Shown in pieces: positions 10,462-33,794 of a DNA stretch of 43,391 bases (positions are counted from its first letter, which is position 1; each line of letters starts with the position of its first letter). The position numbers and the translations under genes were made by a program. Location of the stretch: the IMG/VR virus record IMGVR_UViG_3300024520_000014, positions 1 through 43,391 of that record. One strand, 5' to 3'. This DNA comes from a virus. The notes beneath the pieces were generated by a model. That model searched no databases, had not been told where the DNA came from, and saw nothing but the letters and a program-made list of their open reading frames with translations.

Positions 10462-10474
10462 AATATATAAATTA

Positions 10475-10526
10475 AAAACAGTATCCTAGGGGCTGGTTTG
10501 TATGCGAACCCCTAAAATACTGTTTT
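10475..10526 (-). promoter_or_regulatory. Leader hairpin / putative attenuator before the dnaB operon
   Basis: A 10-bp stem AAAACAGTAT/ATACTGTTTT (10475-10484 with 10517-10526) encloses an AGGGG/CCCCT stem; on the minus strand it ends in five T about 12 nt before the operon start codon region. The loop TCGCATACAAACC is complementary to two upstream leader segments, TGTATGCGA and GGTTTGT (about 10532-10555). This could switch between structures or form a pseudoknot. Confidence 0.7.
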
Positions 10527-10558
10527 CAATTACAAACCATTTAATCGCATACATAGGT

Positions 10559-10587
10559 ATTATATACTATCTTCAATAAAAAAGCAA
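10559..10587 (-). promoter_or_regulatory. Promoter of the replication operon, TTGCTT-17-TATAAT
   Basis: TTGCTT at 10582-10587, 17 bp, TATAAT at 10559-10564. The -35 box lies inside the T-run of the upstream RNA terminator, so termination and re-initiation are adjacent. The leader to the DUF6291-like ATG is about 90 nt. Confidence 0.8.
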
Positions 10588-25260: not shown

Positions 25261-25355
25261 TAAAAAAAGCAGTCTATAATCAACTGCTTAAATAGTAATA
25301 ACGTTCACCCACTACAGGAACTTTATTACTATTTAAGTAATTGATTAGTGGGTTT
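25261..25355 (-). promoter_or_regulatory. Structured leader with 15-bp stem, loop-leader pairing and terminator
   Basis: A perfect 15-bp stem (25287-25301 with 25323-25337) encloses a loop holding TAGTGGGT (about 25304-25311), which is complementary to ACCCACTA just upstream in the leader (25346-25353); together they can form a pseudoknot. A second hairpin GCAGT/ACTGC (25269-25273, 25283-25287) followed by seven T is an intrinsic terminator. The element lies between the promoter at 25377-25404 and the scaffold-like gene, so it may control head gene expression. Confidence 0.75.
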
Positions 25356-29499: not shown

Positions 29500-29733
29500 T
29501 TATATTCAATTAGTTATATCAATAGTGGGATCATCTTTTATAATGTCCCAACCTTCAGTCATTATAAAAGGTTTTGGTGGGAATAAATTCATTCTATCAA
29601 TTATTAATTTATTTAACTCACTCCTTTTGTTGTCCAACCTATATATTGATGCTGTTATATCTTTAATTTCGTATCATATTTTATTAATATATTCATCATC
29701 TACTCATACTATTTCTTCTGAAAATGTTGTCAT
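29500..29733 (-). CDS. Hypothetical protein, 77 aa, upstream of terL
   Basis: MTTFSEEIVGVDDEYINKIG YEIKDITASIYRLDNKRSEL: a helical pair with heptads, then IMTEGWDIIKDDP. It precedes terL, so a packaging role is possible, but the HTH protein at 41757 is a better small-terminase candidate. Confidence 0.6.
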
Positions 29734-30084: not shown

Positions 30085-30168
30085 GAAAAAAACCTTACTA
30101 TTCGTAGTAGTAAGGGTAAACTCAGTAGTTCGAGTTGCCTCGTACTACGAATACGAGTTTAATTTGTA
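30085..30168 (-). ncRNA. Putative kissing-loop small RNA E, about 85 nt
   Basis: Two hairpins: CTCGTA/TACGAG with loop TTCGTAG (30139-30157) and CCTTACTA/TAGTAAGG with loop CTACGAA (30093-30115), the second followed by seven T as terminator. The two 7-base loops are exact complements, so they can kiss. Promoter TTGCAA-16-TAGTAT lies just upstream (30174-30201). No coding frame. Strong evidence for a functional RNA of unknown role. Confidence 0.75.
30093..30115 (-). terminator. Terminator of RNA E
   Basis: 8-bp stem and seven T on the minus strand; also one half of the kissing-loop pair. Confidence 0.8.
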
Positions 30169-30173
30169 CTTAA

Positions 30174-30201
30174 ATACTATAGATAAAATGAGGAATTGCA
30201 A
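30174..30201 (-). promoter_or_regulatory. Promoter of RNA E, TTGCAA-16-TAGTAT
   Basis: TTGCAA at 30196-30201 and TAGTAT at 30174-30179. Confidence 0.65.
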
Positions 30202-30298: not shown

Positions 30299-30356
30299 TT
30301 GCATTAATTGAAATGAAGTGATACTATTAGTGTACAGTTTATTTATTAACCCACTA
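30299..30356 (+). promoter_or_regulatory. Plus-strand promoter TTGCAT-17-TACTAT with AACCCACTA motif
   Basis: TTGCAT at 30299-30304, TACTAT at 30322-30327, and the leader motif AACCCACTA at 30348-30356, three bases before the first ATG. It is the only clear plus-strand promoter. Confidence 0.65.
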
Positions 30357-30359
30357 CAA

Positions 30360-30458
30360 ATGAATAAATATGAGAAGTATTATATTATGTTATTTATAGC
30401 TGTTCTGTTAGTAGCGTTGTACTTCGTTGTATGACCAGATTATTTAAGTTTTATGTAA
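30360..30458 (+). CDS. Tiny membrane protein, 32 aa, plus strand
   Basis: MNKYEKYYIMLFIAVLLVAL YFVVGPDYLSFM: a short polar start and one membrane helix; the Gly in VVGP is TGA. One of only two genes on this strand, after a dedicated promoter. Size and hydrophobicity would suit a holin, antiholin or membrane peptide; not diagnostic. Confidence 0.65.
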
Positions 30459-30499
30459 GAGTGAGAAAGAGGAGAATTTTAATATTTAATTATAAGATT

Positions 30500-30652
30500 A
30501 TGGAAATAGTTATTTGAGTTGTTATATTTATTATAATAGTTGTTATATTTGAAAATATAATGAGAATAGAAAAAAGAGTAGGAAGATTAGAAGATAAATT
30601 TTATAATCAAGAAAACCCAGAGTGGCATAAAGGTATTAAATGAAAAAAATAG
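30500..30652 (+). CDS. Small membrane protein, 50 aa, plus strand
   Basis: One N-terminal helix (MEIVIGVVIFIIIVVIFENI) then a charged tail (MRIEKRVGRLEDKFYNQENP). This N-in anchor with charged tail is the plan of Rz1-less spanin or holin-type lysis proteins and of small phage membrane proteins. A G-rich sequence, AAAGAGGAG, precedes the start by about 30 bases. It ends before a shared terminator. Confidence 0.65.
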
Positions 30653-30664
30653 AAAGACTAGAGA

Positions 30665-30694
30665 AGAAAAAAAGACTTTAATTAGTCTTTTTTT
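30665..30694. terminator. Bidirectional terminator between convergent genes
   Basis: Stem AAAGACT/AGTCTTT (30671-30677 with 30684-30690) flanked by A-run and T-run, so it works for both the plus-strand unit and the minus-strand 1033-aa gene, whose stop is at 30693. Confidence 0.85.
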
Positions 30695-33600
30695 ATTTAT
30701 ATAAATCTTTTAATTTAGTTGCACTAAATTTTCAAGGTCTTAAATATGCTATTTCAAATCAGTCTTCTTCTATTACTGCATCATAATATTTTTTAAATTT
30801 ATTAAAAATAACCTCTCTCTTTTCCAAGTATCCTATATTTTCTGATATTTCTCTTCAACTTTTTGCATTGTCTCCAAAAAAAACTTTATCTAAGTCTTTT
30901 TTATTTACTCATATATTTTTACTTATTTCATCTATTGTATATATACTATCTGAATACATAGGATTATTAATTTTTAGTTCAGTTGTATATAAATCTCCAT
31001 ACCCTTTAGCTTTATCTATATCCGTTGAAAAATATATTCCATCTCAATATCTACCACCTCACTTTCCTAATTTTTTTATTTCAGGATTTACTTTACTTCA
31101 AGTAACTACTGTAATTGGTTTACTTATGTCTATATTCTTTTTATATGGTATGTTATAATTTTTAACAAACTCATCAACACTCTTATATTTTTTAGCTTCG
31201 CTAATTAAATCACTTTCACTCATAGTATCCTTTTTAACATCTAATGACTTAACTGTATCATTAGTTTTTGTTTTTTGCAAACTTGGTTCTACTTTCTTTA
31301 TTCAAGTATCTATATTACTAGGTTTTTTAATAGTAGTATTAGGTTTACTTGTTTCAATTGATTTTCATAACTTAACAGGCTCTTTGATAATACTTTTAGG
31401 CCTTGTAATGCTTGGTGTTTTTAGAGTAGATTTATACTTTTCCATAAATATTTTATCCTTCATCTCATCAAATATATCTTGTACAGTTCTAGTTTGCTCC
31501 CACGGATTTTGACTAAGATATTCTTGTGCTGCATTACTAAAATCTTTTGCATTTTTACTTTCTAAAAATTCTATCTCTGAATATTTATCCCCACTTTTAC
31601 TTTTAATAACTCTTTTTTCGTCTCAATATAGATTTTTAAATTTACTTAATAAATCATCTCAATATTTCTTTTTAAGAGTAGAAGATATACTTTCTATTTT
31701 ATTTATATTTTCTATTCAAATAATTTTAGAGTCTATCTCTGTTAATAATTCTTTTTCCTTTCATAATCACAAATCTCTAATATCGTTTTTAAGATTTTTC
31801 AAATCATCAATATTATCTGTTTCCTTTATGATTGTTTTAGATAATTTGTAATTCTCTGATTGTGTATTATTTATATTTCTTCAAAACTTTGTAGTCAATA
31901 AATCTTTTTTACTTTCTTGGATAATTCATTTTTCTATAGTTTGAGGTGTAGTTATATGCCTTTTAGTTTTTCATACTGGCAATGCTAGAGGTTTTTTAAT
32001 CACTTGCTTTGGTATAGATTTTTTAATACCACCAAGCTTTTTATACCCCTCTTTTACTAAGAAATCAGGGTCTTTCATTTTTCAATATAACTTTCATAGA
32101 GCAACTTTTCATAATCATTTTCACATGGTAGCTATTCATTCTGGTCCTTTTGTAAAAGTACTAATACCTCATTTAATTATATCTCATGCTCCAGAGATTC
32201 TAGAAAAGCTTTCTTCCAATGATGAGCCCTTTGCTCTCATATTCTTTATATTTGCCTTTACTATATCAGGGTAAGTCTCTGCTAAGGCTCTATATTCTCA
32301 CATAAGCTCTTTAAATTGAGTTCCTTTTACATTTCATATAATGTTATTTTCAGTTGTTCTAATCTCATTTCAAAGCTTTTTAAGAACTGTATTATACATA
32401 TCTCCAAAAGGGTTTTGTTGTTTAAATGATGTTTCAGCATTTAGCCTTGACCTCATACCTCATAATGTCGGTACATCAATATTTCATTGCTTTTTATAAT
32501 AATCTGATAATCATTTTAAAGCTTTGATGTCAGCATCATCACTAGGAATATACTCTCATCTTTTTACTTTACCAGCTATCTCATCATCTATTATTTTAGA
32601 AAACTGCTTTCAATTTACTTTCTCAACAGCCTTTCATCTAGCTTTTTCAACCTGATCCCATACTTTCTTCATCGAATCCTTATATGCCAATGCTCTTGTT
32701 TCGGTATCTACTGGCTTATGTCAGTATTTTAATACAGTTTCATCAGCTTTCTGTACATTCTTTCATATATTAACTATATTCTTATCCTTTCATAATGTTT
32801 GGTATGAGGGACTTGCTGCCTTGAATAGTTCTTTATTTCAAGAGCTACTTCATAATATTTTTCATGCTACCTTCTCTGTTCATGCCTCTATGGCTACTCA
32901 AGGCTTCTTTGCTACTGCCTTAAGACGATCAAGTATAACTTGTTTATTATCGAATCATGCACTAATCTTTCATTTAGATACATCTAATCCCTTTTTAGCA
33001 AAGTCTGTTACTTGTCATAATCATTTCTTAGTCATACCTCATACCTGCTTTACTCATGTCTCTAATCATTCTTGTAATACTTTTCAACCTTCCTTTAATC
33101 ATGTAACTCATTTCTTAACTGTTCATAATCATGTAGCATCTGCTGCTAACTGTAAACCTCAAAAGAATGCCTTATAATTTCTAGCTTTTTCAGGGTCTGT
33201 TTGTTTGAGATATTCATATCATTCTAAAGCTTCATTTACTTCACTCATTACCATTTCTCATCATTTAGATTGCATAGCACTCTGTAATCCGTCTTGTAGT
33301 GATTGTTTTACTTCCTCTGGAGCAACTGTTTTTAATCAAGACATAAAAGCATCTCATATAGTTTCTGAGACACCTCAGGCTATAACTCACATCGATTGGA
33401 GTAAACTGGAAGTAGAGGACTGTTTACCCATTACCTCTGAAGTTTTAGCATCCTTTATGTCTGTTCAAATATCTTGTACAGTTTGAGCAGTTCTCCCCAA
33501 TAGTCATTTCTCTACTCCTCCTTCTCTATCTAATTCTCATTTACTAATCTTACTAATATCAGCTCAAAAACTACGAAGTCCTCAGGCTATTTCTCATCAG

Positions 33601-33794
33601 ACTTCTCAAAGCATCTTAGGTCATCTTGCTAACTGAGTTCAAACTCAACTAGCTACCTTTTGTAATACTCAAGGTTGTTCAGGCTTAGGAGTAGCCTTAG
33701 ACTTAATAATAAGCCCTTTAGCTCTTTCTTTATCTATTCATTTACTTAATAAGTCTTTGAATTTTCATATATCTTGCTCGTTAAATTCAGGCAT
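30693..33794 (-). CDS. Large ejection/internal virion protein with C-terminal ADP-ribosyltransferase-like domain, 1033 aa
   Basis: A very long frame, checked codon by codon with TGA as Gly. N-terminal half: helical, Gly-rich, with GG pairs (LAGGPKMLGEVWGEIAGGLR) as in proteins that enter the host membrane at infection. The last 130 residues read GRYGDGIYFSTDIDKAKGYG, DLYTTELKINNPMYSD... IEEDGFEIAYLRPGKFSATK LKDLYK. This G-x-x-F-S-T-D-x-x-x-A-x-x-Y-G pattern with a late D-G-x-E is the ART-PolyVal type of toxin-like ADP-ribosyltransferase. It may modify a host target on entry. Confidence 0.7.

Follow-up and report, generated by a model that had tools for sequence, protein, structure and literature searches.

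The leader of B. subtilis pyrG is controlled by G residues that are added reiteratively at the 5′ end of the transcript and pair with the pyrimidine-rich arm of the leader terminator, so that the very 5′ end of the RNA prevents termination. The leader pseudoknot of ColIb-P9 repZ and other plasmid kissing-loop leaders act on translation together with an antisense RNA; there, the downstream gene is controlled by a loop that pairs elsewhere in the leader, and no terminator loop is involved. In the pT181-type attenuator a 5′ hairpin holds the anti-terminator strand (Novick et al., 1989, summarized in PMC4878617); this strand sequesters the 5′ part of the leader terminator, and locking the strand away lets the terminator form. 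The HMP-PP (thiS) riboswitch has an aptamer embedded in the terminator and a highly conserved loop, and is tied to thiamin genes (PMC6478431); its terminator loop has a regulatory role and a possible pseudoknot competes with termination.

RNA E, the element described here, occupies positions 30085–30168 of the window, the 43,391-nucleotide stretch of IMG/VR record IMGVR_UViG_3300024520_000014 that was analysed. Judged by its sequence, it is none of pT181, pyrG or thiS. By analogy it would work most like the pT181 attenuator, with a strand that could either sequester the 5′ part of a leader terminator or be locked away; however, the strand in RNA E matches the terminator loop and its flanks, whereas that of pT181 matches mainly the 5′ arm, and the two sequences are unrelated. 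A simple consensus promoter search gave no evident antisense RNA gene for RNA E. As in pyrG, the 5′ end of the transcript is predicted to pair with the leader terminator, but here and in the sister elements described below it is an element-specific sequence directed against the loop, sometimes as two adjacent partners. In contrast to those of thiS, the loops are unconserved and complementarity alone is kept.

The window is a phage genome in which TGA is a sense codon: 81% of it lies in frames of at least 100 codons when TGA is read as open, versus 16% under table 11. A reading of TGA as glycine (NCBI table 25) is probable, as it agrees with relatives and with glycine-rich motifs. Table 25 is used by Gracilibacteria/Absconditabacteria and some of their phages (PMC10746230); the host of the window phage is predicted from the genetic code only. 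ARAGORN found no tRNA in the window. Nearly all genes are carried by the minus strand, among them those for the terminase large subunit (TerL; 29452–27821), a portal-type protein (27742–25769) and DnaB (9862–8615). RNA E sits just before the terminase, in a gap of ∼950 bases between a gene end at 30693 and the start of a 77-residue gene at 29733. The nearest ATG downstream is ∼80 nt away and opens a doubtful 41-residue ORF (30013), which is followed by the 77-residue gene and TerL. Two small overlapping ORFs on the plus strand (30318–30652) likely encode membrane segments and are possibly lysis-related; the pair faces the gene at 33794–30693 at an A/T-rich hairpin (30664–30697) that could terminate in both directions. 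A further strong hairpin, GTAGTTAATAGTATATAGGGGGGGATATTATTTACTAC, whose loop contains a G7 run, is found on the minus strand at ∼29866–29810.

The original prediction described two strong hairpins with exactly complementary seven-base loops, the second of which was a terminator. The complementarity is exact, TTCGTAG (30101–30107, plus strand) matching CTACGAA (30145–30151), and it runs on to 11 nt (30099–30109 and 30143–30153). An intrinsic terminator is also present, but it lies on the minus strand at 30093–30115, and the other hairpin, read on the plus strand, has only a poor T tail. We assign the terminator to the hairpin at 30093–30115 because the genes are mostly on the minus strand and because a strong terminator, CCTTACTACTACGAATAGTAAGG-TTTTTTT, is read there from 30115 to 30086. 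A terminator search returned two candidates in the region versus 0.1 in shuffles, and the one in RNA E has the features (8 bp, U7) of an intrinsic terminator.

RNA E is modelled as a short leader or attenuator RNA running on the minus strand from ∼30169 to 30086. A −10-like box, TATAGT (30176–30181, minus strand), lies 6 nt before the expected start near 30169, a placement resembling that of TATAAT in the sister elements; it has one mismatch to TATAAT and is a weak signal, such matches being common (12% background). The minimum-energy fold of the 84-nt stretch on the minus strand has a z score of about −4.9. It contains a 17-bp stem (30117–30161; ensemble probability ∼0.80) with a GCAA tetraloop, an A·A mismatch and a 5-nt bulge, UAUUC. 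This stem is predicted to sequester the capture strand A, UAUUCGUAGUA (30143–30153, minus strand), whose complement spans the terminator loop and 2 nt on either flank. The intrinsic terminator hairpin (30093–30115, minus strand; ensemble probability ∼0.80) has 8 bp and the 7-nt loop CUACGAA (30107–30101), and is followed by a U7 tract (30086–30092); the segment complementary to A is termed A′, UACUACGAAUA (30099–30109, minus strand).

The loop complementarity of RNA E is real and not due to chance. Its loop-matched hairpin pair is the sole one of such quality in the window; shuffles of the window gave no such pair under strict criteria (20–100 shuffles per strand) and 0–3 pairs per shuffle under looser criteria (20 shuffles). 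With the terminator fixed and the upstream 55 nt shuffled, an 11-nt match arose in one of 2000 sequences and a loop-matched hairpin of the type first predicted upstream (H1, see below) in none of 2000; none of 4983 real 55-mers of the genome gave the 11-nt match to the fixed terminator. These frequencies, together with the recurrence relative to controls described below, argue against an ordinary terminator that stands beside an unrelated hairpin and whose match arose by coincidence or as a side effect of template switching at a palindrome. Such pairs are met occasionally in real genomes, and the sequence is rich in A and T and in short repeated words; however, the loops match while the stems differ, unlike a simple inverted duplication of one hairpin (an origin rejected on the same ground), and we regard this explanation as very improbable.

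Two competing folds are predicted for RNA E. The best fold (−25.4 kcal/mol) consists of the 17-bp GCAA stem (30161–30117) and then the terminator, while the best fold that holds an A:A′ helix (−23.8 kcal/mol) is 1.6 kcal/mol above the minimum and adds GAGG:CCUU pairing of the terminator arm. The two are mutually exclusive, with probabilities of 0.80 for the terminator and 0.195 for A:A′ in the ensemble of the full RNA (78 nt). A:A′ has a probability of 0.83–0.99 while the growing transcript measures 70–76 nt; completion of the terminator stem at 78 nt brings it down to 0.02. RNA E is predicted to be bistable with attenuator-like timing, and two mutually exclusive, near-isoenergetic folds, one of which holds a terminator arm, are what is expected of an attenuator; the energies are pseudoknot-free, the hairpin enumeration is crude and the promoters and terminators are predictions. 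Because 8% of sequences with the upstream region shuffled reach the same bistability, bistability alone is weak evidence and comparative data are needed.

The loop–loop pairing had been suggested to act as an intramolecular clamp, a dimerization signal or a switch of termination. A switch is best supported, by the bistable folds and their timing, whereas a strict kissing-loop does not hold as a general rule. The hairpins are also not both strong: H1, the first of them (30139–30157, minus strand; CUCGUA-UUCGUAG-UACGAG), is an alternative early fold of only ∼−3 to −4 kcal/mol, with a probability of 0.0008 in the pseudoknot-free ensemble. In an intramolecular kissing-loop, H1 and the terminator would both stay folded while their loops pair and clamp the 3′ end, for stability or stronger termination. 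The 7/7 loop match in RNA E is consistent with this, as are three compensatory loop–loop changes between two of the sister elements (G004 and G016) and the placement of the partner in a hairpin loop, with loop-centred complementarity, in G004, G016, G011 and G006-2317. Both hairpins are stable in G004, G016 and G006-2317, in contrast to the unstable H1 of RNA E, and we estimate that a 7-bp kissing helix, which folding tools do not score, could bring the state near the minimum energy. Nevertheless, the H1 required in RNA E is ∼11 kcal/mol worse than the best nested fold, six sisters have a strand only and no H1, and in G006-2317 the hairpins abut (0-nt linker) on stems of 7 and 20 bp, a geometry that is hard for an intramolecular kiss. 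We consider a kissing-loop of this type unlikely. The loops are complementary, as the kissing-loop label implied, but the partner is a strand near the predicted start in six sisters and part of a bulged stem in RNA E; the class is better described as one in which an upstream strand captures the terminator loop.

On the modelled folds, RNA E is rather probably a cis-acting attenuator that works by such loop capture, and one case of a design that recurs in code-25 phages. In this design a promoter would be followed by a strand or hairpin loop for capture, placed at the beginning of the transcript or close to it, then by a terminator with a complementary loop and the gene, the order along the RNA being A, terminator 5′ arm, loop A′, terminator 3′ arm, U tract and gene. 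Since A′ is made before the terminator 3′ arm, A can take the loop first. As the loop leaves RNA polymerase, A would pair over 11 bp and, with the GAGG:CCUU pairing, hold the terminator 5′ arm, giving a readthrough state; if the 17-bp GCAA stem retains A, or A is outpaced, the terminator would close and give a stop state. In other elements the agent that locks A might be a protein, an antisense RNA or a shifted start site, and would favour termination. The effect could also have the opposite sign, loop pairing acting as a clamp that makes the stop stronger. More speculatively, tethering to the polymerase could prevent the 3′ half of the hairpin from threading the loop once A is paired. It is from these models that we infer transcription, termination, a regulatory outcome and a signal for RNA E.

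When hairpin pairs with complementary loops were sought under strict rules, the second hairpin being U-tailed, RNA E was returned together with four other elements with unrelated loop sequences: CACACC/GGUGUG in G004, CUCGAC/GUCGAG in G016, ACCACCAUU/AAUGGUGGU in G011 and CGCAAC/GUUGCG in G006 (RXKB01000065.1). Each of these four lies just before a start codon, the genes concerned being one with DUF6291, one with KilA-N, one for an HNH endonuclease and one for a repeat protein, and the four strict elements in 193 upstream regions compare with 0.15 in shuffles. The G004 and G016 elements are homologous over 112 nt, and all 31 pairs (25 stem and 6 loop–loop) are kept; eight pairs have changed on both sides, three of them among the six loop–loop pairs, whereas 34–47% remain paired when the partner is shifted by one to three columns. 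The comparison points directly, in a small sample, to selection on loop pairing in this design. For the recurring design, the expectation that loops stay complementary in relatives is borne out in that loops of unrelated sequence still match and three compensatory loop changes separate G004 from G016; the other copy of RNA E itself is identical.

A wider scan covered 85 intergenic U-tailed hairpins (loops of at least 5 nt) from code-25 phage sequences and the window, with 152 hairpins from cultured phages (T4, phage K, phiCD27 and others) as controls; loop complementarity was sought within 100 nt before or after, and the partner did not need to be a hairpin loop. The related phages had been gathered via terminase, portal, a conserved 523-residue protein and a capsid-type protein, and G006, a single phage-like contig binned in a Dependentiae MAG, was taken from a contig scan. 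An upstream loop partner at p < 0.05 was found for 15 of the 85 code-25 hairpins versus seven of the 152 controls, the latter being at the level expected by chance. At p ≤ 0.01 the counts are 11/85, including RNA E and one row that is a mirror strand, versus 2/152 (Fisher 3e-4; 0.002 without RNA E and the mirror row), in a set of few genomes in which half of the sisters come from the G006 contig and with scan criteria that were adjusted after the first hits had been seen. Downstream partners in the code-25 set number four, all mirror images of the same elements. RNA E has the core property of the class, an upstream loop partner, at p = 0.003.

The design recurs with unrelated sequences in ∼14 elements from six code-25 (TGA = Gly) phages, three of them in the window, and the elements usually lie 7–20 nt before an ATG. 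In six elements two adjacent partners, A1 and A2, cover nearly the whole 14–17-nt loop (p ≤ 0.002 each); simultaneous pairing of both partners in these dual elements was rejected as sterically unlikely, the spacers being 4–17 nt. An exact TATAAT is present 4–9 nt before the partner or its hairpin in seven of 13 sisters, versus 2.5% by chance; the partner is therefore likely to be the first thing transcribed, that is, the 5′ end. RNA E (TATAGT 14 nt before the long stem), G001, the window element with its loop at 25317, G004 and G016 deviate from the common spacing of 5–7 nt. The gene directly before DnaB in G001 (ATG 26988) has a loop-capture element, as does the DUF6291 gene of G004, with different sequences. 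The G006 contig (43,658 bp; loci L028–L030) holds at least seven loop-capture leaders with different loops, some of them before HNH-type genes; its placement in a Dependentiae MAG is probably a mis-binning.

Both sister elements of the window are on the minus strand. The first has an exact TATAAT −10 box (10559–10564) 5 nt before partner A1, TGTATGCGA (10545–10553), then partner A2, TGGTTTGTA (10531–10539), and a terminator hairpin (10472–10529) whose loop, TCGCATACAAACCA (10507–10494), is covered at 14 of 14 nt by A1 and A2 (9 nt each, 5 nt apart); it ends 10 nt before ATG 10461 of a DUF6291 gene. This leader (10564–10462) is arguably a cleaner example than RNA E. The second has the partner ACCCACTA (25346–25353) and a long hairpin (25287–25337) with the loop CTGTAGTGGGT (25317–25307), 47 nt upstream of ATG 25239; the hairpin overlaps a second U-tailed terminator (25289–25262). 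The distance from leader start to terminator loop is 53–60 nt in RNA E, versus 39–78 nt in most other elements. RNA E differs from its sisters in the absence of an ATG within 20 nt, a mismatched −10 box, a short 7-nt loop and a single partner. It is probably an atypical member of the loop-capture class, so called because it lacks both a start codon in the 20 nt downstream and an exact TATAAT at the usual distance.

RNA E is compact, runs from a promoter-like box to a terminator and has no start codon next to it, which would also suit a stand-alone small RNA of ∼80 nt that has a promoter and a terminator of its own, works in trans or as a decoy, and uses the loop match for its structure or for an antisense partner; the T4 stable RNA region rnaC likewise has a loop-complementary hairpin pair. 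The sisters, however, stand directly before the start codons of different gene families, as cis elements do, and we judge a small RNA to be quite unlikely. At the DNA level, the exact 11-bp inverted repeat TATTCGTAGTA-N33-TACTACGAATA could be a protein-binding, recombination or gene-cassette site (as a folded single strand). G004 and G016 resemble each other in the leader alone, the similarity breaking off at downstream genes that differ, and some of the sister genes are HNH endonucleases, as such a site might predict. Against this, the partners are found solely on the upstream side of the hairpin, as defined by transcription, and a U tract follows, TATAAT stands at a near-fixed distance in about half of the elements and the 11-mer has no other exact copy in the window, on which ground CTACGAA as a repeated operator was also rejected; we regard a DNA-level element as very unlikely.

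Returning to loop capture, the elements may, tentatively, constitute a previously undescribed class of leader in which the nascent 5′ end captures the loop of the gene's own leader terminator and physically blocks closure of the polymerase-tethered hairpin. The loop sequence would be free to diverge because only complementarity matters; several elements with differing loops coexist in one genome, so that each gene could have its own loop, and dual partners might provide a three-state or timer switch. In the open-access literature we found no description of such leaders in these phages. The class would point to a family of built-in RNA switches that is absent from Rfam. Regulatory RNAs are usually found through conserved sequence, and family searches would miss these elements because only the complementarity between terminator loop and leader start is kept. 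Their carriers are uncultured phages with the same TGA = glycine code as Gracilibacteria/Absconditabacteria, a setting in which gene control is little known, and the design, free in loop sequence and fixed in logic, could be used as an orthogonal RNA switch.

No diverged copy of RNA E was found in the collections searched, and exact and gapped pattern scans of IMG/VR returned the identical contig only (L001/L003). Cultured phages showed no DNA similarity. The TerL relatives G001 and L005–L008 have no counterpart of RNA E upstream of TerL, and its position before this gene is therefore unconserved. An Rfam search of the window gave no match at the gathering score, the weaker sub-threshold matches missing RNA E, and that of four sister-bearing loci gave tRNAs only. 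G004 and G016 were the only matches to a strict H1 pattern, and a broad H1-like pattern gave only noise outside these two. The real control genomes contained two U-tailed kissing hits in 373 kb. In T4, positions 70950–71004 (minus strand; ∼20950–21004 of L033), annotated as rnaC (species 1 stable RNA), contain two hairpins with fully complementary 6-nt loops, UUGACG and CGUCAA.
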